From positions 1-44,796 of the IMG/VR virus record IMGVR_UViG_3300025886_001605: a stretch of 44,796 nucleotides of DNA. One strand, written 5' to 3'. The stretch is from a virus. Shown here piece by piece: positions 231 to 9,788 of the stretch. Position 1 is the first letter of the stretch; every line of letters begins with the position of its first letter. The notes under the pieces were generated by a model, which ran no database searches, was not told the DNA's origin, and was given only the letters and a program-made list of their open reading frames with translations. A program made the translations under genes and the position numbers.

Positions 231-920
231 TTATGGCAGGGCGATCCATGCGGCGAAGTTCATCCATCGCCAGAAGCAGTCGACTGATTGATATCCGCAG
301 TCTTTGAGCAGGGTTTCGTTCCCTGCTGCGGTGAGGGGTACGAGTTGGCCTTCGAGCGAGTGTCGCTTGGTGTCGATTTGTTCTTGGGTGTAGCCGTGTG
401 ATCGTTTCATTCTGTAGTAGAGATCAACCATTTTCTGGTCGATTTGGTGTCCTCGGCCGAGTACTTTCTCGACGAGGATGAGTGGCCCGTTTGTTCGTTC
501 TCGTATTGAGCCGATGATCTGTTGGCGGTACTCGATGGGTGTGAATTGCAGGGTTAGTACGGCGAGGGTGACGTCGACTCTTTGGTCTGGGATGCCGTTG
601 CGGAGATCCCAGCGGAGGATGGTGACGTTTGAGTCGTGTTTGAATCGGTCTGCGGCGCTTTGTCGCATCGGTTCCGATATTTCGAGACCTACGGCGGTGC
701 AGTCTGGTCTTCGGGCTATTACGGCTGCTAGTGCGCCGCCTCTAGAGCATCCGGCGTCGAGGACAACACCTCCGTTTGGTAGGAACTCGCAGGCGATGTC
801 GGAAACAGCGGCCCGCATTGTTTTGAACTCTGGTATCGACCTGGCCAGCATGTCGTCGAACACGGCCGTCACAGTCTCGTCGAACTCCCATTTGCCTACG
901 GGCATCGTTTGGTCACTCAT
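231..920 (-). CDS. CmoA-like carboxy-SAM synthase
   Basis: This 229-residue class I SAM-dependent enzyme resembles CmoA (E. coli CmoA is 247 residues), which makes carboxy-S-adenosylmethionine (Cx-SAM) from SAM and prephenate. Features seen: N-terminal WEFDETVTAVFDDM (CmoA has WTFDERVAEVFPDM), SAM loop LDAGCSRGG (residues 54-62), acidic end of beta-2 at E80, TLQF (123-126), VEK (150-152) and TKRHSLE (184-190). R186 aligns with E. coli R199, which I recall as contacting the Cx-SAM carboxylate. In bacteria CmoA serves tRNA uridine-34 modification with CmoB. No CmoB is visible here, but a C5-cytosine DNA methyltransferase is in the same operon, so Cx-SAM supply for DNA modification is the inferred role. 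The start overlaps the inositol synthase stop by 8 bases. An ordinary methyltransferase remains possible. Confidence 0.8.
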   Translation of the reverse strand: MSDQTMPVGKWEFDETVTAVFDDMLARSIPEFKTMRAAVSDIACEFLPNGGVVLDAGCSRGGALAAVIARRPDCTAVGLEISEPMRQSAADRFKHDSNVTILRWDLRNGIPDQRVDVTLAVLTLQFTPIEYRQQIIGSIRERTNGPLILVEKVLGRGHQIDQKMVDLYYRMKRSHGYTQEQIDTKRHSLEGQLVPLTAAGNETLLKDCGYQSVDCFWRWMNFAAWIALP

Positions 921-1974
921 CTGACAAGAAGGCTACGGCTGCGCGCTTCGCCCCGAGATCGTCGTTTGTGTGGTTCTGGGGTGCTTTCATCAGGAACCCA
1001 GACGGCGCGTCGAGAACTCCACCGATGCCACGGTTCTTGGCCACTGCTAGGTAACGGATTCCGTCAACCACGATGCCAGCAGAGTTCGGGGAGTCGATGA
1101 CCTCCAATTTGAGATCCACCGACATCGGCGACCCGGCAAACCCGACCATGTCCAGGTTGATGAAAGCGATCTTGGTGTCATCGAGATGGTCGACATAATC
1201 GGACGGGCCGATATGGACTTTGTCTACTGGGTACACGTCGGTCACCGAAGTGGTCTTCGAGATCCTCTTGTCTGTGAGTCTCGATTGGTCCAGCATGTTT
1301 CGGAAATCTGCGTTGCCTCCGACGTTCAACTGGTAGGTGGATTCCAAGTGGACGCCACGCTCGGCGCAAATACGTACCAGCGACCTGTGCAAGATCGTCG
1401 CTCCATATTGCGACTTGATGTCATCACCGATCAACGGGACGTTCAGAAGGGCGAACCGTTCGGCGATAGTGGCGTTGCGTGCGATCTCGACTGGTATGCA
1501 GTTCAGGAAAGCCACACCGGCTTCTGCGGCTGCGAGAGCGTACAGTTCCGATGCCAGCGTCGACCCCACTGGCAGGTAATTCACCAACACGTCGAGGTTC
1601 TGCATTCGCAGCTCATGTGCGATGTCTTCGACAGACGCCGTCATGTCGTCCGTGGTTTCGACAATCGAAGTCGACGCAAGCCCGTCTAGCCGTGGAGACG
1701 GCATCACTGGCCCTGGGAAGTTCAGCGGCTTCGCCAATCGTCGTTCATTGAACTCTGCTGCCTCTCCGATCGTCAAACCAACCTTACGAACATCGACATC
1801 GAACGCCATCACAACATCGATGTCACCTATCTTGTATCCGTCGATGTCCGGGGACAACAGGCCCTTCGTCTCCCCGGGGTTCTCGGCGTACCACTGGATG
1901 CCTTCCAATAACGCAGCGGCACAGTTTCCTACCCCAACCAAGCCGGTTCGGATCTTACGATTTCCATTGCTCAT
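913..1974 (-). CDS. myo-Inositol-1-phosphate synthase
   Basis: A 353-residue protein of normal length for actinobacterial MIPS. The enzyme converts glucose-6-phosphate to inositol-3-phosphate through NAD-linked keto intermediates. Motifs seen: nucleotide-binding GLVGVGNCAA (11-20), VNYLPVGS (131-138), GDDIKSQ (183-189), LNVGGN (216-221), RISKT (238-241), HIGPSD (254-259) and LKLEVIDSPNSAG (288-300). Lysines 187, 240 and 289 lie in the family's conserved blocks, so it appears intact. The ATG at 1974 overlaps the TAA of the upstream aminotransferase (TAATG); a longer frame to 2013 exists but runs into that gene. In the host, inositol feeds phosphatidylinositol and mycothiol. Within this operon it may instead supply a keto- or amino-cyclitol for DNA decoration, which is inference. 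Confidence 0.9.
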   Translation of the reverse strand: MSNGNRKIRTGLVGVGNCAAALLEGIQWYAENPGETKGLLSPDIDGYKIGDIDVVMAFDVDVRKVGLTIGEAAEFNERRLAKPLNFPGPVMPSPRLDGLASTSIVETTDDMTASVEDIAHELRMQNLDVLVNYLPVGSTLASELYALAAAEAGVAFLNCIPVEIARNATIAERFALLNVPLIGDDIKSQYGATILHRSLVRICAERGVHLESTYQLNVGGNADFRNMLDQSRLTDKRISKTTSVTDVYPVDKVHIGPSDYVDHLDDTKIAFINLDMVGFAGSPMSVDLKLEVIDSPNSAGIVVDGIRYLAVAKNRGIGGVLDAPSGFLMKAPQNHTNDDLGAKRAAVAFLSDE

Positions 1975-2945
1975 TATTTGCCTTTCAAGAAGCCAGGCAG
2001 AGTGCCCGACCAAGGAGTATGGGTTCTGTCGCCGATCACGAAAGTAGACTCGTGGAACTGGCGGGCGCCGACCAGAGGTCTCGTCACGTAATCAGAGAAC
2101 AACGGATGGTCTTCCAATGGAGCGACCGTGGTGGGTGTGGTTGGTCCCGCCCATCGATCCCGTAGCCCTATCGGCAGACGTATCTTGTGCCATGCGACTG
2201 TCGAGCCAGACGGGACTTCAGGCAGTCCCAGCTCGATAGAGATGATGCTACGCGACCTGTCCGCCTCTATTGACCGTCCACGAACGAAAGGCAGGTCAGC
2301 GAGTCCGGTCATTGCGCACAGTTCAGGTATCTTCCCGTTCATACCTCGCACGTTCGAGGTGCGATATCCACCCGCGGGTTTGTAGTCCGTTTCCCCGAAC
2401 CTCATGGCGGCCCTCGCCACATGTGCGATATCTCGGCTGGGTGTCGAGATCATCCCGCCTTCGCCGCACGACCACTTCTTGGATTCGTTCCCGGAGAAGA
2501 TCGCCACATCCACATATTCGGAACAAAGACCGGCCGAACCCAAAGACGGTGCAGCATCTTCGACGATCCAAGCATCAGGGAACAATTCGTTGATGCGTTC
2601 GTAGTTGGCTACCCGACCGTCAAGGTCGATGGCCACTATCGCTTTTGGGTCGTCGACCGGGACAGTGTCCGGGTCGATCAGCCCCCAGACAGGATCGACA
2701 TCAGCGAATACGGGCTGCGCCCCGACCATCAACACAGCTAAAGCCGCCGCCTGGAAGCCGTACCCTGGCACTACCACTTCGTCACCCGGGCCGATCCCGC
2801 AACCGACAAAAGCACCGAACAGCGCTGTTGTTCCTGACGAACAAGCCACCGTCGATTGCAGTGGCAACGCATCACCGTGAGACGTCAGGAACGAACCGAA
2901 CTCCTGTTCCAAAGAAACAGCGTATGGGCCTTCTGTCAGCTTCAT
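1974..2945 (-). CDS. DegT/DnrJ/EryC1-family PLP aminotransferase
   Basis: A 323-residue fold-type I aminotransferase, somewhat short for the family (commonly about 370-400). N-terminal SGTTALFGAFVGCGIGPGDEVVVP-type segment (residues 37-60), VEDAAPSLGS (128-137, with D130 the expected pyridine-nitrogen partner) and GNESKKWSCGEGGM (152-165), where K156 is at the position of the PLP-binding lysine. The usual Gln after EDAA is Pro here. The family aminates keto-sugars and keto-cyclitols, for example scyllo-inosose in aminoglycoside pathways. The ATG at 2945 lies one base after the synthetase stop; the upstream in-frame extension to 2981 falls inside that gene. Being next to an inositol synthase suggests an inosose-type substrate. 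The amino donor cannot be read from the sequence. Confidence 0.85.
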   Translation of the reverse strand: MKLTEGPYAVSLEQEFGSFLTSHGDALPLQSTVACSSGTTALFGAFVGCGIGPGDEVVVPGYGFQAAALAVLMVGAQPVFADVDPVWGLIDPDTVPVDDPKAIVAIDLDGRVANYERINELFPDAWIVEDAAPSLGSAGLCSEYVDVAIFSGNESKKWSCGEGGMISTPSRDIAHVARAAMRFGETDYKPAGGYRTSNVRGMNGKIPELCAMTGLADLPFVRGRSIEADRSRSIISIELGLPEVPSGSTVAWHKIRLPIGLRDRWAGPTTPTTVAPLEDHPLFSDYVTRPLVGARQFHESTFVIGDRTHTPWSGTLPGFLKGK

Positions 2946-2946
2946 T

Positions 2947-3786
2947 TCAAACCTTCCCAGCGAACATATCGTTGTACACACCTACGACAGATTTCAGTCC
3001 GCGAGTATTGAACTCGGGGTCGACCAACAGTAGGTCATGCCACTCTCTGATGCCTGAGTTTACTTGCAGCGGCGAGTTCCGACGCCAGAACCCAGGGGTC
3101 GACCAGAACTCGGGGAACGCTCGAACTGCGATCCCTTTCTGCTTCGGTCCGTCTGGTCCGCGGTTCAATTCTGAGAAGTCCAGACCCAACGCATAGTCCC
3201 GTAGTGGCTCGTCAGAATAAGGCTCTTCGAGCGTGACGCCAAGATCGCGAGCAACCCCGTGCATGTGCCCAGTACCACAATCTGTGTACCGGTCTTCGAG
3301 CTTCGACCGTCTGTACTCGCGCGCAACCTCCTCGCCTTGTTGTGACACGAGAATTGCCACACGCTTATCGTCCAAACAAACTGCACCAGTACCGATCATC
3401 GCACGATCGAAGCCGAGAGATGTAAGCCGCTCGGCGATATGCATTATGGGTTGGGCGCACTGTATGGACGCCTTCTTTGCGGTCTGTCTGATATCCATGA
3501 TCCTGCGGATGTCGGCGACCAGGGCAGTCTTTGACCTGTCCAAGTTGACTATCTCTGCGTCGAGGTCGTACCGATCGGCCATCCGTATCGCCATCTTGGC
3601 ATCGTCGTGGAGTCGACCACCGATAGTGAATGTCACGCATAGAGGTTGCCCTCCCAACTCCATTTGGGCTGCGAGCAAGGTCGCAGAGTCGACCCCGCCC
3701 GAAAGCAGGTTCGGGATGTTCTCCATCTCTCCCTCCTGGATGACAGCCATCAGTCGGCGCTTCCATTCCTTGGCCACTTCATCCAT
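2947..3786 (-). CDS. AsnB-type ATP-pyrophosphatase (amide synthetase) without glutaminase domain
   Basis: A 279-residue protein with a PP-loop SGGVDS at residues 29-34, the ATP-pyrophosphatase signature of asparagine synthetase B and relatives. Only the C-terminal, synthetase-like half of AsnB is represented. There is no N-terminal class II glutaminase domain with its catalytic Cys, so nitrogen from glutamine is not made in cis. Such enzymes adenylate a carboxylate and pass it to an amine. Further recognisable blocks are IGTGAVCLDDKR (131-142) and a Trp/Arg-rich C-terminal region. It overlaps the methyltransferase stop by 8 bases. Inferred role: adenylation and amidation of a carboxyl group, possibly the carboxymethyl group on DNA. 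QueC-like 7-deazaguanine chemistry is less likely because no Cys zinc motif is present. Confidence 0.75.
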   Translation of the reverse strand: MDEVAKEWKRRLMAVIQEGEMENIPNLLSGGVDSATLLAAQMELGGQPLCVTFTIGGRLHDDAKMAIRMADRYDLDAEIVNLDRSKTALVADIRRIMDIRQTAKKASIQCAQPIMHIAERLTSLGFDRAMIGTGAVCLDDKRVAILVSQQGEEVAREYRRSKLEDRYTDCGTGHMHGVARDLGVTLEEPYSDEPLRDYALGLDFSELNRGPDGPKQKGIAVRAFPEFWSTPGFWRRNSPLQVNSGIREWHDLLLVDPEFNTRGLKSVVGVYNDMFAGKV

Positions 3787-4837
3787 TGGGTTGTCCTTTC
3801 AAGGCTTCGATGATCGACTCGCCGACGGCTTTGTACATCGGAGGCGCGACTGCGCGTCCTAGTCGTTCCCATCTTTGGCTGAAGTTACCAGTGAGGGCGA
3901 AGTCGTCGGGGAATCCGCATAGCCGACGGACTTCACCAAGCGTGATACGTCGGTTCTCGTAGGGGGGCAGCACCCAGTTGTTGGTTTGTAGGATTGTGGG
4001 TGCCGGTTCGCCGGGTGCGAGCCTGTAGTGCGAGAAGAAAGAGCCGGTGCCGACAACCGCTTGGCCTGATTCGCCGGGTTTAGCTTTCGACATGACCCGT
4101 GCGAGTTTCGAGTCGGCGGACCAGGGTGGCAGAGGGTCGTCATTAACGGGCGTAGGCTGCTTGGTAGCGTCGGCCCAGGTGTAGACATAGTCGAATGGCT
4201 TAGGGGCTACGAGAACTGCTTGAAGGTCGTCTCGGACGCCATGTATGACTAGGCGCACTCTTCGTTGCGGGACTCCGAGTCTAGAGCAGTCGAGCCGCCA
4301 GACTCCGACCCGGTAACCGATAGCACGGAGCCTGAGAACGATCTCCTTGAGATAACCCTTAGCGACTCCCATCGTCATGCCATCGACGTTCTCTGCGATG
4401 AAGGTCTTTGGTTGGATCTCGTCGACTAATCGGACGAACTCGAAGAACAAGTCATCGACCCTCTGGGAGGTCTCGGAGTACGACTTGACCTTGCCCCATC
4501 CTGCTTCGCGTTTCCCTGACATGGAGAACGAAGCACAAGGCGGCGAACCTTCGAACACGTCGAGTTCACCGACGCCGAGACCGACAGCGTCGAGGATCTC
4601 GCTGCCTGTCACTTGTCTGATGTCTCGGCGGTCGACTTGAATGCCGGGATTGTTTAGCTCGTACACGTCGGCGGCTGCGTCGATGAACTCTGATGCCCAG
4701 ATCACTTCGATGCCTGACCATGCCAATCCGAGCGAAGCGCCACCCGCGCCGGAGAACGTCGACACGGCCTTGAGGCCAGATGTCTTCTCACCCGCTTTGA
4801 TATCACTTACAGACGGGATCTGATAGGGCGGTTTCAT
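3779..4837 (-). CDS. C5-cytosine DNA methyltransferase with Arg in motif X (putative carboxymethyltransferase)
   Basis: A 352-residue protein with the full set of C5-cytosine methyltransferase motifs: I (STFSGAGG, 26-33), II (ASEF, 48-51), IV with the catalytic Cys (GSPPCASFS, C101), VI (IAENVDG, 147-153), VIII (QRRVR, 191-195), a short target-recognition region around 200-290, IX (RRITLGEVRRLCGFP) and X. Motif X normally reads GN(A/S)V. Here it is LGRAVAPP, so R328 replaces the conserved Asn that lies beside the SAM methyl group. An engineered CpG methyltransferase (M.MpeI N374K, as I recall) gained Cx-SAM activity by a basic residue at what I believe is this site. The ATG at 4837 overlaps the ParB-like stop (TGATG); a longer frame to 4858 is disfavoured. 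The target sequence cannot be predicted. Confidence 0.92.
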   Translation of the reverse strand: MKPPYQIPSVSDIKAGEKTSGLKAVSTFSGAGGASLGLAWSGIEVIWASEFIDAAADVYELNNPGIQVDRRDIRQVTGSEILDAVGLGVGELDVFEGSPPCASFSMSGKREAGWGKVKSYSETSQRVDDLFFEFVRLVDEIQPKTFIAENVDGMTMGVAKGYLKEIVLRLRAIGYRVGVWRLDCSRLGVPQRRVRLVIHGVRDDLQAVLVAPKPFDYVYTWADATKQPTPVNDDPLPPWSADSKLARVMSKAKPGESGQAVVGTGSFFSHYRLAPGEPAPTILQTNNWVLPPYENRRITLGEVRRLCGFPDDFALTGNFSQRWERLGRAVAPPMYKAVGESIIEALKGQPNG

Positions 4838-5364
4838 CAGTCGAACTCGAACCCACACTTAGGGCATTGGTGTTCAAGATCGAGCGAGTCGACATCGAAC
4901 TCGTCAAAACCCTCCGGTGCACTCCCAGAGTCGTAACCGGTACCAAGAAGCCGCTCGATGTCGATATCCGAGTATCCGGTCACGTCGACCAACTCGGCAG
5001 GCAAAGAACTAAGCAGCTCGACGAGCAAAGACTCGTCATAGAGTCCCAGCTCGCCGATCCTGTTGTCGGCGAGTGCGAAGGCTTGCGCTTGCTTCATTGT
5101 GAGGTCGTCGGCAGACACCGCGGCAATGTGTGTCCACCCTAATCCTGCGACAGCTTCGAGCTGATGATTGCCTGCCACTACAACTTTTTTCCCTCGGCGT
5201 GTTTGGTACACGACAGGCTTGCGTTGCCCGAACTCTTTGTATGACTTAGCGACAGCGTGAACGTCGCCGAGCCGAGGGTTGCTGGGTAGCCGGTGAAGTT
5301 CAGCGATCGGTGTCATCAGTGTTTCAAGACCGGGTGCGATCTTGTGGATCTTCTTATCTGCCAT
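4837..5364 (-). CDS. ParB/Srx-fold nuclease-like protein with C-terminal CPKCG
   Basis: A 175-residue protein. Residues about 15-105 form a ParB-like domain: IAELHRLPSNPR, then VAKSYKEFGQRKPVV, VVVAGNHQLEAVAGLGW and ADNRIGELG. This arrangement is typical of phage and prophage ParB-like proteins encoded beside DNA methyltransferases. The acidic C terminus ends in CPKCGFEFD, a single CxxC that could bind metal only as a dimer. It is the first gene of the putative modification operon and is translationally coupled to the C5 methyltransferase (TGATG). Whether it nicks DNA, binds a nucleotide or guides the methyltransferase cannot be told. The ribosome-binding sequence CAGGAA lies upstream of the ATG. 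Confidence 0.8.
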   Translation of the reverse strand: MADKKIHKIAPGLETLMTPIAELHRLPSNPRLGDVHAVAKSYKEFGQRKPVVYQTRRGKKVVVAGNHQLEAVAGLGWTHIAAVSADDLTMKQAQAFALADNRIGELGLYDESLLVELLSSLPAELVDVTGYSDIDIERLLGTGYDSGSAPEGFDEFDVDSLDLEHQCPKCGFEFD

Positions 5365-5376
5365 TTCGGGTTCCTG

Positions 5377-5847
5377 TCATTGCTGTTGATGGAAGGTGAT
5401 TACTCCGTCGCCTTCGACGTAGTCGCCGGATTCTCGGTCGGCTCGGATCTGTTTAGCGCGTTGGTCTTTCAGGTATCGGCTGATCATCTCTTGCAGGTGC
5501 ATGAAGCGAAGGTCGAGCGTCGAGCAGGTGTCGAGCAGGAAGTCTTGCAGGTCTGGTGGTAGCAGCGCCGATTGCACCCGCCGATGGTAGGCCCACGGGA
5601 CATCTCGCCGACGGTGCGGTTCGAAGCTGGCGGCGATCTCGCGGACTTCGGCGGTCTCTCGGGGTTCGAGTAGCGGCGACGACCAATGCAGGTCGTTGAT
5701 GGCGTCGGGTGACGGAGCGGCGTTGAGTAGGTCGCCCATCCACCATTGCGAGAGTGCCCAGACCTTCGCGATCGTCGCGGCCTGGCGGTGCCAGTCTTCG
5801 TCGTCGACGAAGGCGGCGTTCGGCCCGTCCGGTAGGTCGACGTTCAT
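5377..5847 (-). CDS. Unknown protein, 156 aa
   Basis: Not recognised. The ATG at 5847 overlaps the WhiB stop (ATGA). The protein is mostly helical in appearance with an aromatic stretch (VWALSQWWMGDLL, residues 29-41), a basic middle (PHRRRDVPWAYHRR) and a helical segment from 98 to 138 (LLDTCSTLDLRFMHLQEMISRYLKDQRAKQ in part). It ends in a glutamine run (HQQQ). No signal peptide or catalytic motif is seen. A longer frame up to 6354 exists but overlaps the WhiB gene and is Arg/Pro-rich, as expected for a shadow. It sits between a WhiB regulator and the putative DNA modification operon. Confidence 0.7.
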   Translation of the reverse strand: MNVDLPDGPNAAFVDDEDWHRQAATIAKVWALSQWWMGDLLNAAPSPDAINDLHWSSPLLEPRETAEVREIAASFEPHRRRDVPWAYHRRVQSALLPPDLQDFLLDTCSTLDLRFMHLQEMISRYLKDQRAKQIRADRESGDYVEGDGVITFHQQQ

Positions 5848-6377
5848 GCGGTCATCGCTTCGACGTGAGCGCAGGCTCGGCAGCGGTCGATCTGGTGGGG
5901 TTCGCAGCGTTCGTCGTCGAGCACGATCACGACCGGCGTGTCGTCTGGTTTGTGTTGTTTGTTCTTGCGGGTGCGCCATGCTGCGGCGTGGCAGCAGCCT
6001 CGGCATCGGCATCCCTTGCCGTGAGTCGACGTGTAGCCGTGGCGTGCGCCGCGACTGTTCGAGGAGATCGGGGACCGGCCAGGGTTCAGGATCTCGGTCA
6101 CCTTCACGCAGTAGTGACACGAGCAGCCTGCCCGGTAGGTGTCGCATCCATGCCTGGCCTGGCGTCGTCGGAGTTCCTTGCGCATGTTCTCGCGGGTGCC
6201 GCCCCAGAGGCCGATCGCCTGTTCGTTTGTGTATCCGGTGGCGAGGTCGATGCACTTCGCTCGGACGACGCACGCCGCGCAGTATTTGGCGGCGACCGGG
6301 TCTGGTCCGGTGGTGTCGTCGCCGATCCAGAGCGTCGGGTCTTTCCCGCGGCAAGCCGCGTACTTCATCCAGTGCAA
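5844..6377 (-). CDS. WhiB-family [4Fe-4S] regulator with Cys-rich C-terminal extension
   Basis: A 177-residue protein. Its N-terminal 65 residues carry the WhiB signature: C9, C33, C36 and C42 (C-Xn-CxxC-x5-C) and the turn GLWGG at 56-60, followed by basic residues. WhiB proteins bind a 4Fe-4S cluster and act with the primary sigma factor. Phage copies are known to interfere with host WhiB regulation. The extra C-terminal part (about 75-177) has several more Cys pairs (CSCHYC, CRCRGCC, CRAC) and may bind another metal. Start: TTG at 6377 has a GGGG ribosome-binding sequence six bases upstream; ATG at 6368 is the alternative. The GGGG lies in a possible hairpin at 6384-6401. Confidence 0.88.
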   Translation of the reverse strand: MHWMKYAACRGKDPTLWIGDDTTGPDPVAAKYCAACVVRAKCIDLATGYTNEQAIGLWGGTRENMRKELRRRQARHGCDTYRAGCSCHYCVKVTEILNPGRSPISSNSRGARHGYTSTHGKGCRCRGCCHAAAWRTRKNKQHKPDDTPVVIVLDDERCEPHQIDRCRACAHVEAMTA

Positions 6378-8396: not shown

Positions 8397-9289
8397 GCTT
8401 CGGTGTCGATGTATCGGCAGGCCGGGAAGGTCTTCGTTGAGCCTGGTTTCCACCATGACATGCGCTCCCGTGTGGCCTGATCGGTCCAGAGGTTCCAGCA
8501 GATAATCGCGTCGGCGAGCTTCAGGTTCTTGAGTGGCATCGTTCCCTTGTCTGCGGTCTGGCGGAACATGCGATCCCGAAGCCACCAAGCACCGGAGTGA
8601 TACAACGTGTCGCCGGTGGCGACCTCGTGCCAGAACTCCGAGGCGTCGAACTCTTGCACGTCCCGGAGTGTGAGGAAGGAGAGCACGCCGTGCACCCGGC
8701 CGTTCGGACGAAGTCCTGCTGCGCCCATCTCTCGAACGAGGCGGCAGGCTTCGATCACCTGGGGGTTCTCGTCGACCCATTCGATCAGCTCGTGCCGTGT
8801 CGGGTCTGGTCGCCCGTGGATCATCGTCGAGACCTGAGCGCCTCGGTCGTATGCGAAGCCGCCTCGGGCGATCGCTCCGGTCATTGCATAGTCGTGCACG
8901 CCGTGACTCTTGAGGAAGTCCGAGACTGACCGGGTTTTGCCCTGGTCCATCTCGGCGAACATGCGTTCGGCTTCTTCGGGTTCAACGATCATGATCGTGA
9001 ACGGTTGCGGAGCGCCCGACGCGACGGTCGCCGACATCCGGTGCTGACCGTTCACTAGCGCACAGTTCGTGTCGACGACGATCTGATCGTTCGAGTGATG
9101 CCACCGGCCCGCCCTCATATCGACGGCGAGTTTCTTCGCGTGATTCGGGCTGAAGCTGCGCTGATAGGTCGGGACACCTGCCAGGAGCTGAGCCGCCTGA
9201 TCGGGGGTGATCATCTGCCTGCCTTCGATGAGCTTGACACCGTCGCGGGTGTGCCTCGTCTGCTGGCCCTGGGTAGATGCAAATTTCAT
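8393..9289 (-). CDS. ParB-like NGQHR-motif protein
   Basis: A 298-residue protein with the block ALVNGQHRMSATVASG at residues 77-92, the conserved core of a phage family related to ParB/DGQHR domains. Upstream lies TYQRSFSPNHAKKLAVDMRAGRW-type sequence, split between residues 41 and 63, as in ParB-like modules where the protein reads a flank and then NGQHR. The rest is helical and rich in Trp. The start is ATG at 9289 with the repeated leader AAGGACA upstream. It could be a nuclease or nucleotide-binding regulator. It is not close in sequence to the ParB-like gene at 4837-5364. Confidence 0.65.
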   Translation of the reverse strand: MKFASTQGQQTRHTRDGVKLIEGRQMITPDQAAQLLAGVPTYQRSFSPNHAKKLAVDMRAGRWHHSNDQIVVDTNCALVNGQHRMSATVASGAPQPFTIMIVEPEEAERMFAEMDQGKTRSVSDFLKSHGVHDYAMTGAIARGGFAYDRGAQVSTMIHGRPDPTRHELIEWVDENPQVIEACRLVREMGAAGLRPNGRVHGVLSFLTLRDVQEFDASEFWHEVATGDTLYHSGAWWLRDRMFRQTADKGTMPLKNLKLADAIICWNLWTDQATRERMSWWKPGSTKTFPACRYIDTEA

Positions 9290-9459
9290 TTCTTGTCCTT
9301 AATGGTTGGGGTTACTGCGGCGAGGATCGCCGAGATCTGGTGGTCGGTGAGCCGACCGGGTTCGGCCGGTGGCCGGAGGGTGTCGAGCCAGTCTGCGAGC
9401 TTGAATGCTGCGAGGCTCGATGCGCCGAGCGCTGCGAGCGTGATGTACGTGCCGATCAT
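9286..9459 (-). CDS. Short protein with N-terminal hydrophobic segment, 57 aa
   Basis: A short frame between two called genes: ATG at 9459 overlaps the upstream stop (ATGA), and TGA at 9286-9288 overlaps the next ATG (ATGA). The product starts MIGTYITLAALGASSLAAF, a plausible single membrane helix, then a soluble part (LADWLDTLRPPAEPGRLTD...) ending in KDKK. Perfect coupling on both ends and the absence of any other gene in this interval support it. Function unknown. Confidence 0.6.
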   Translation of the reverse strand: MIGTYITLAALGASSLAAFKLADWLDTLRPPAEPGRLTDHQISAILAAVTPTIKDKK

Positions 9460-9788
9460 GCTGCGTCGAGTCGCTTCAGGGTGGCCCGTGCTGAGAGCAC
9501 GAGTGCTCGGTAGTCCTGCCAGAACTCCGACGCCGAGTCCAGCCCGTAGTGCCTGGCGTCGGAGCGGAGGTCGGCGAAGGCTTCACGGTCGAGAGAGACT
9601 CGGTAGGTCTTCGAGAGTGTCTTGATGATCCTGCCGGTCGAGCCGCAGCCTCGGTCGGTGTGGTCGTCGTAGAAAGCGTGCGGCAAGTCGATGGTGATCC
9701 GGCCGGTCGAACCGGTGCCGTCGCAATATCGGCAGTCGCTGCGGTCGAGGTGCCCGTCGGGAGCGCAGGCCGAGCATTCGGAGATCAT
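9456..9788 (-). CDS. Zinc-finger protein with DnaJ-like CxxC repeat
   Basis: A 110-residue protein starting at ATG 9788, overlapping the upstream stop (ATGA). It begins MISECSACAPDGHLDRSDC, then RYCDGTGSTGRI: two CxxC pairs around a GxG turn, as in a single DnaJ-type zinc knuckle. The remainder is helical (SLDREAFADLRSDARHYG) with no catalytic motif. Two other small genes in this region carry similar knuckles (10725-10883, 12465-12881). Function unknown. Confidence 0.65.
   Translation of the reverse strand: MISECSACAPDGHLDRSDCRYCDGTGSTGRITIDLPHAFYDDHTDRGCGSTGRIIKTLSKTYRVSLDREAFADLRSDARHYGLDSASEFWQDYRALVLSARATLKRLDAA

Follow-up and report, generated by a model that had tools for sequence, protein, structure and literature searches.

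A phage operon predicted to cap 5-carboxymethylcytosine with an aminocyclitol

Why should a phage operon for cytosine modification carry genes for an aminotransferase and an inositol-phosphate synthase (MIPS)? The question is raised by a 44,796-base virus record, IMGVR_UViG_3300025886_001605 (the window, meaning the whole stretch analysed), in which an operon of six minus-strand genes occupies positions 231-5364 in the order ParB-like protein, C5-cytosine methyltransferase, AsnB-fold ligase, DegT aminotransferase, MIPS and CmoA. We think that the operon probably encodes a variant CmoA-CmoX-CmoY system that caps 5-carboxymethylcytosine with an aminocyclitol amide. Families were assigned by Pfam, NCBIfam and PHROGs profile searches, and the gene calls, with their open reading frames (ORFs), are as follows.

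4837..5364, minus strand: ParB-like protein of 175 amino acids, the first gene (PHROG 620, E 3e-33; also PHROG 723)
3779..4837, minus strand: CmoX-like C5-carboxymethyltransferase (PF00145, E 4e-49; ORF from GTG 4858, likely ATG 4837)
2947..3786, minus strand: CmoY-like ATP-dependent amide ligase of 279 amino acids (PF00733, E 2e-9; Asn_synthase/QueC PP-loop)
1974..2945, minus strand: DegT/DnrJ/EryC1/StrS aminotransferase dependent on pyridoxal phosphate (PLP) (PF01041, E 2e-34; ORF from GTG 2981, likely ATG 2945)
913..1974, minus strand: MIPS (PF01658, TIGR03450; ORF from TTG 2013, likely ATG 1974)
231..920, minus strand: CmoA-like carboxy-SAM synthase, the last operon gene (TIGR00740; PDB 1im8 and 4gek)

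The initial annotation of this DNA had described six tightly coupled genes of these families, and both the ORF positions and the family searches bear it out. With the likely ATG starts at 4837, 3786, 2945, 1974 and 920, every junction in the operon is an overlap of 1-8 nucleotides (nt) or a gap of 1 nt; the MIPS start overlaps the DegT stop, and GGGAAGG lies upstream of the DegT ATG. A sister contig, IMGVR_UViG_3300009497_000010, is 99.98% identical across the operon and extends beyond the left end of the window. On this contig, ORFs resembling the small and large terminases (named by eye) directly follow cmoA, which is the operon's last gene.

The carboxymethylation chemistry has a published counterpart. 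According to the main text of Yang et al. (Nature Communications, December 2025; PMC12783734), CmoA of Synechococcus phage S-B43 makes carboxy-S-adenosylmethionine (Cx-SAM), CmoX uses Cx-SAM only to place a carboxymethyl group on C5 of cytosine, and CmoY attaches glycine to 5-carboxymethylcytosine as an amide. The route proposed in the initial annotation, from Cx-SAM made by CmoA through carboxymethyl transfer by the C5-methyltransferase to an AsnB-like amidation, matches these enzymes and their signature residues. The same paper makes outdated the statement of the initial annotation that no natural phage pathway using Cx-SAM on DNA had been described, and rules out presenting the core pathway as undescribed.

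The PDB structure closest to the window methyltransferase is SpCmoX of S-B43 (8yf3, E 2e-55). Motif X Arg350 of SpCmoX stands at the position of HhaI Asn304 (PMC12783734), and in our alignment R335 of the window protein, in the motif X sequence LGRAV, falls at the same position as the SpCmoX Arg and the HhaI motif X Asn. The window protein combines this substitution with an SPPC motif containing C108, as expected of a C5-methyltransferase of the Cx-SAM type. The CmoA homologue scores 134.7 bits on TIGR00740 (E 4e-39), which is under the 193.3 cut-off and higher than the 115.6 bits of the proven Cx-SAM synthase SpCmoA. Its R186 aligns with the place of Arg199 in E. coli CmoA, a residue number and role that we assume here.

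The initial annotation had proposed looking for co-occurrence of CmoA with C5-methyltransferase genes. Among 167 distinct CmoX-like rows, a set that leaves out the window's own copies, cmoA lay within 8 kb of 135 of the 139 rows with the motif X Arg versus 1 of the 28 without it. The sole non-Arg row with cmoA (L256) has Gly in that column, and the four Arg rows without cmoA come from stretches of only 6.1 to 10.6 kb, so that the gene may fall outside the sequence available. A first survey of 98 CmoX-like ORFs, including four copies of the window's sister, gave 91 with Arg and a nearby cmoA, 2 with Arg and no cmoA, and 5 with Asn or Asp, 4 of these without cmoA. One close CmoX relative (L012, 2251-3696) has Asn in motif X (GNSV) and a ParB-like gene with no cmoA nearby, which makes it a negative control, supplied by nature, for the link between Arg and cmoA. 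We consider carboxymethylation of cytosine in this phage very likely.

The predicted CmoY is a stand-alone AsnB-fold synthetase domain that has no glutaminase domain and keeps the SGGVDS PP-loop. Its AlphaFold2 model has a mean predicted local distance difference test (pLDDT) score of 88.8, with AsnB (1ct9) as top Foldseek match; family, fold and PP-loop all identify an AsnB-type ligase encoded beside CmoX. An iterative hidden Markov model search seeded with the window ligase also collected SpCmoY (L017). Amide formation on the carboxymethylated base is a prediction that we hold nearly as firmly as the carboxymethylation itself.

We then asked which amine would be joined. Among 82 phage MIPS loci, the order CmoX-CmoY-DegT-MIPS-CmoA was present in two: the sister of the window, and L143, a viral contig of 92,049 bases (IMGVR_UViG_3300028840_004217) whose proteins are well diverged from those of the window (CmoX 55% identity over 223 residues, CmoY 51%, DegT 34%, MIPS 45% and CmoA 48%). 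A further locus, L192, is a 6,075-base contig binned as Microbacterium; it reads ParB-CmoX-CmoY-DegT and ends inside DegT. With the window proteins as queries, the first surveys found neither DegT nor MIPS near CmoX in the 90 further loci that carry this gene, and in the 50 whole records behind CmoX loci there was a DegT match in 4 and a MIPS match in 1, the sister. In L143, the interval between MIPS and CmoA contains a weak match to the uracil-DNA-glycosylase superfamily, under the cut-off (9103-9621; PF03167, E 2e-4).

The window ligase groups with those of L143 and L192 in a single clade (FastTree support 0.993 among 101; Shimodaira-Hasegawa-like approximate likelihood ratio test 100 among 40), and the three have in common Q109 together with further loop and C-terminal motif changes. 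The remodelled site of the window protein comprises Q109, GTGAVCLDDK and NSPLQVNSG; several near-invariant residues are changed (E109Q, S139D, K140D and H237N), with some uncertainty in the loop alignment. T133 presumably sits at the amine site, where we take AsnB to have a loop Glu and beta-lactam synthetase a Tyr. Outside the clade, position 109 was Glu in 29/29 stand-alone ligases (one of which, L043, is a cut amidotransferase-type protein) and in 14/14 amidotransferase-type ligases, a count that leaves out loci fetched by a Glu-bearing pattern, since these would bias the tally. Among 103 further distinct CmoY-like ORFs, the two with Q109 have DegT no more than 6 kb away; the remaining 101 have none at this distance in the sequence available. 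Of these 101, 91 adjoin CmoX, and 2.5 kb or more of downstream sequence is available for 82 of the 91.

A search of viral contigs for further members of the ligase clade returned the sister and L143 only, and among 396 genomes from the phylum of the L192 bin that bin alone had a full-length ligase match, 42 others giving short or weak PP-loop matches (best E 6e-8). Phage matches to the window and L192 ligases were at most 27% identical among the matches listed (40 of 56 and 6 of 34 records), and plasmids gave no match at E 1e-8.

The two genes between CmoY and CmoA have the residues expected of an aminocyclitol pathway that starts from MIPS. Aligned with its L143 and L192 counterparts, the window DegT keeps the PLP lysine of NESK and the EDA motif. 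The MIPS matches PF01658 (E 2e-29), TIGR03450 (E 8e-94; 314.6 bits, under the 638 cut-off) and inositol-3-phosphate synthase 1gr0 (E 5e-84), and it keeps DSPNSAG and the conserved lysines K249, K253, K281 and K343, which we take to be catalytic.

A scheme can be drawn from what is legible in the DNA itself: the genes, their coupling, the signature residues, the recurrence at divergent loci and the linked ligase clade. CmoA would convert SAM and prephenate to Cx-SAM, and CmoX would use this to carboxymethylate the phage DNA at C5 of cytosine. MIPS would convert glucose 6-phosphate to a cyclitol phosphate, and DegT would convert the keto form of the cyclitol to an aminocyclitol such as inosamine, the keto form coming from host enzymes or DegT taking the keto intermediate of the MIPS reaction. 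CmoY would then use ATP to adenylate the carboxylate on the DNA and join it to the amine made by the operon. The predicted product, 5-(N-cyclityl-carbamoylmethyl)cytosine, would cap the base with a bulky polyol lying in the major groove and may shield the phage DNA from nucleases. We infer in this scheme that the enzymes are active in the phage, what the amine is and where the keto cyclitol comes from. The supply of an amino-cyclitol or related amine had been suggested in the initial annotation; the recurrence of the genes, their own ligase clade and the association of phage MIPS with DNA hypermodification, described below, favour the suggestion, and the identity of the amine stays at the level of prediction.

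Outside this operon type, we compared 80 phage MIPS loci that lack the Cmo genes. In 42 of them an ADDT-like gene lay within 2.5 kb of MIPS, on the same strand in 41 and overlapping or no more than 100 nt away in 22. Counted by MIPS clusters at 90% identity, the link held for 33/56. Of 8 ADDT-like proteins scanned with Pfam, 7 matched PF18724, the amino acid:DNA transferase family (those of L179, L002, L014, L117, L132, L145 and L165; not L111), and an ADDT-like gene was present in 0/170 loci without MIPS, a set that leaves out loci from bacterial genomes and in which some loci overlap. TET/JBP-like genes occurred in 13/80, with Pfam confirming those of L179 and L014. The 42 MIPS/ADDT loci lie between L002 and L185; two examples are given here.

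L179, 4087-9227: MIPS/ADDT locus
L014, 2703-9176: MIPS/ADDT locus

These associations hint that many phages, Caulobacter phage Cr30 among them, have DNA bases bearing inositol. DegT was found in 0/80 of these loci, which would follow if its sole purpose were to turn the cyclitol into an amine for amide bonding. We suggest a division of labour in which inositol itself may serve where the link is through a hydroxyl, and an aminotransferase is needed where the link is an amide. Beside these loci stands Stenotrophomonas phage Mendera (L013, 7092-12618), in which MIPS is near a QueC-like protein and a 403-amino-acid protein without Pfam match, and GTP cyclohydrolase and QueE-like genes are annotated close by, which suggests a further base-modification context for MIPS.

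Several observations weigh against aminocyclitol capping. The window DegT is ~20-28 N-terminal residues shorter than its relatives, and its AlphaFold2 model, built from three sequences, is poor (pLDDT 53.9); because of these two features its function may be reduced. It matches both sugar and inosose aminotransferases in the PDB about equally well. The window ligase has lost the otherwise near-invariant Glu109, and because the three DegT-linked ligases form one clade, the link between ligase and DegT counts as one evolutionary event. In L192, MIPS was found neither on the contig, which ends in DegT, nor in a search of the bin made without positive control. ADDT-like genes were absent from 38 of the 80 MIPS loci. 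The window MIPS also matches 6k96, a synthase of a five-membered cyclitol phosphate (E 6e-60). Finally, the inositol phosphatase and dehydrogenase expected of a MIPS-based aminocyclitol pathway were not found in the phage DNA: the records of the window, its sister and L143, which are possibly incomplete, gave no match to PF00459 or to the GFO/IDH family PF01408; the keto cyclitol would therefore have to be supplied by the host or intercepted as the MIPS intermediate.

Some of these points would fit an S-B43-type core whose ligated amine is another DegT product, such as an amino sugar or amino acid, or another MIPS-derived cyclitol, for instance one with a five-membered ring. DegT belongs to a broad family, and the near-equal sugar and inosose aminotransferase matches mean that its substrate cannot be read from sequence; the 6k96 match and the missing dehydrogenase and phosphatase families point the same way. 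We rejected DegT similarity as a guide to the amine, given the near-equal matches and the different best matches of the L143 and L192 proteins; the top PDB match of the L143 DegT is a chain named glutamine--scyllo-inositol transaminase, one name among many near-equal ones, and was not used. Another amine is nevertheless unlikely in our judgement: in both lineages with contigs that extend far enough, MIPS is placed between DegT and CmoA, and the phage MIPS is nearer to 1gr0 than to 6k96. We give still less weight to a ligase that uses glycine or another amino acid, with DegT and MIPS working for some other purpose, for example on glycans of phage or host or on inositol lipids. Glycine is the substrate reported for SpCmoY (PMC12783734), and DegT can be far from CmoX in CmoX records, as in S-B43 (93,977 versus 148,586, more than 50 kb apart). 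However, in the window DegT and MIPS are embedded between CmoY and CmoA by 1-8-nt junctions, and the DegT-linked ligases have site changes not jointly present in the other ligases examined.

Ordinary cytosine methylation, with the methyltransferase using SAM and CmoA serving tRNA modification, would fit the full-length match of the methyltransferase to the C5-methyltransferase family and the role of bacterial CmoA, a tRNA-modification enzyme (PMC12783734). It is very improbable given the Arg in motif X, a residue that goes with cmoA almost without exception; SpCmoX with this Arg takes Cx-SAM only, according to the same paper, and 5-methylcytosine would leave the amide ligase of the operon without a use. 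Capping of 5-carboxymethylcytosine with an aminocyclitol amide remains the reading that we prefer.

The initial annotation had also judged the operon less GC-rich than the core genes and had taken this to suggest a mobile cassette. The difference holds: GC content is 56.8% in the operon versus 61.9% in the remainder of the window, where 0/343 windows of equal length are as low. This composition is in favour of a mobile cassette. Against it, although FastTree put CmoX and CmoA of these loci apart, approximately unbiased tests did not reject CmoX and CmoA clades (p 0.735 and 0.64) paralleling that of the ligase, and we dropped for this reason the idea that a ligase-DegT-MIPS block had been swapped against CmoA and CmoX. 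Mobility of the cassette thus stands as weakly supported.

A WhiB-like regulator gene (PF02467) upstream of the operon, at 5844-6377, suggests an actinobacterial host. The ParB-like protein that begins the operon gave no match in the Pfam scan; in one survey ParB-like matches were present in 11 of 12 further CmoX-bearing loci, the exception being L017. Among 242 candidate ORFs inside CmoX operons, 20 were scanned and none belonged to an amine-supply family by Pfam. In 10 proteins scanned from two Erwinia phages and PaBG, DUF1611 and alanine-racemase-like proteins were the only amine-supply candidates. In Erwinia phage pEa_SNUABM_23 (L106, 4992-10492) these two and a 420-amino-acid protein of unknown family lie between CmoA and CmoY, whereas in pEa_SNUABM_5 CmoY directly follows CmoA; the intervening genes seem to be a further set that supplies an amine to a CmoY ligase. 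Large ORFs between CmoX and CmoA in L009, L010 and L204, eight of which were scanned without Pfam match, are possible further tailoring enzymes.

More broadly, phages may decorate their DNA with cyclitols in two ways, with amino-inositol amide-linked to 5-carboxymethylcytosine here and inositol linked through a hydroxyl by ADDT/TET pathways in many others. This generalization is tentative, and we put it at slightly less than an even chance. If true, phage DNA hypermodification would draw on inositol as a general building block and attach it by two or more unrelated chemistries. The operon, for its part, points to phage MIPS genes as likely to act in DNA hypermodification and not in general metabolism.

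The system can be placed among those already known. With the S-B43 system (PMC12783734) the window has in common a Cx-SAM synthase, a C5-carboxymethyltransferase with motif X Arg, a stand-alone AMP-forming amide ligase and, on many contigs of this type, ParBc genes. It differs in that the S-B43 annotation shows neither DegT nor MIPS within 6 kb of CmoX, the whole S-B43 record is without MIPS, and the S-B43 ligase, 24% identical to that of the window, is without the Q109/GTGAV/NSPxQVNSG signature. The core being published, the DegT and MIPS pair is the new part. The main text of PMC12783734 makes no mention of inositol, cyclitol, DegT or aminotransferase and leaves amines other than glycine open; for one such amine the operon makes a concrete suggestion, together with genes for its synthesis and a ligase clade that can be recognised. 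Neither cyclitols on phage DNA nor DegT or MIPS in company with CmoX turned up in the open-licence PubMed Central papers searched, supplements aside.

Chemistry of the TET/JBP-ADDT type uses a hydroxymethyl handle. Its phage loci, such as that of Cr30, resemble the window in placing MIPS within a DNA hypermodification gene group, and the 80 MIPS loci differ in having no CmoA, CmoY or DegT, 16 of them containing a distant C5-methyltransferase. The nearest likeness for the amine is the hygromycin A route to inosamine, which PMC10949010 outlines as MIPS Hyg18, phosphatase Hyg25, dehydrogenase Hyg17 and aminotransferase Hyg8, most steps being proposed. That pathway and the window have in common MIPS and an aminotransferase as makers of amino-inositol; hygromycin A biosynthesis includes the phosphatase and dehydrogenase, families not found in the phage records, and the acceptor here would be DNA.

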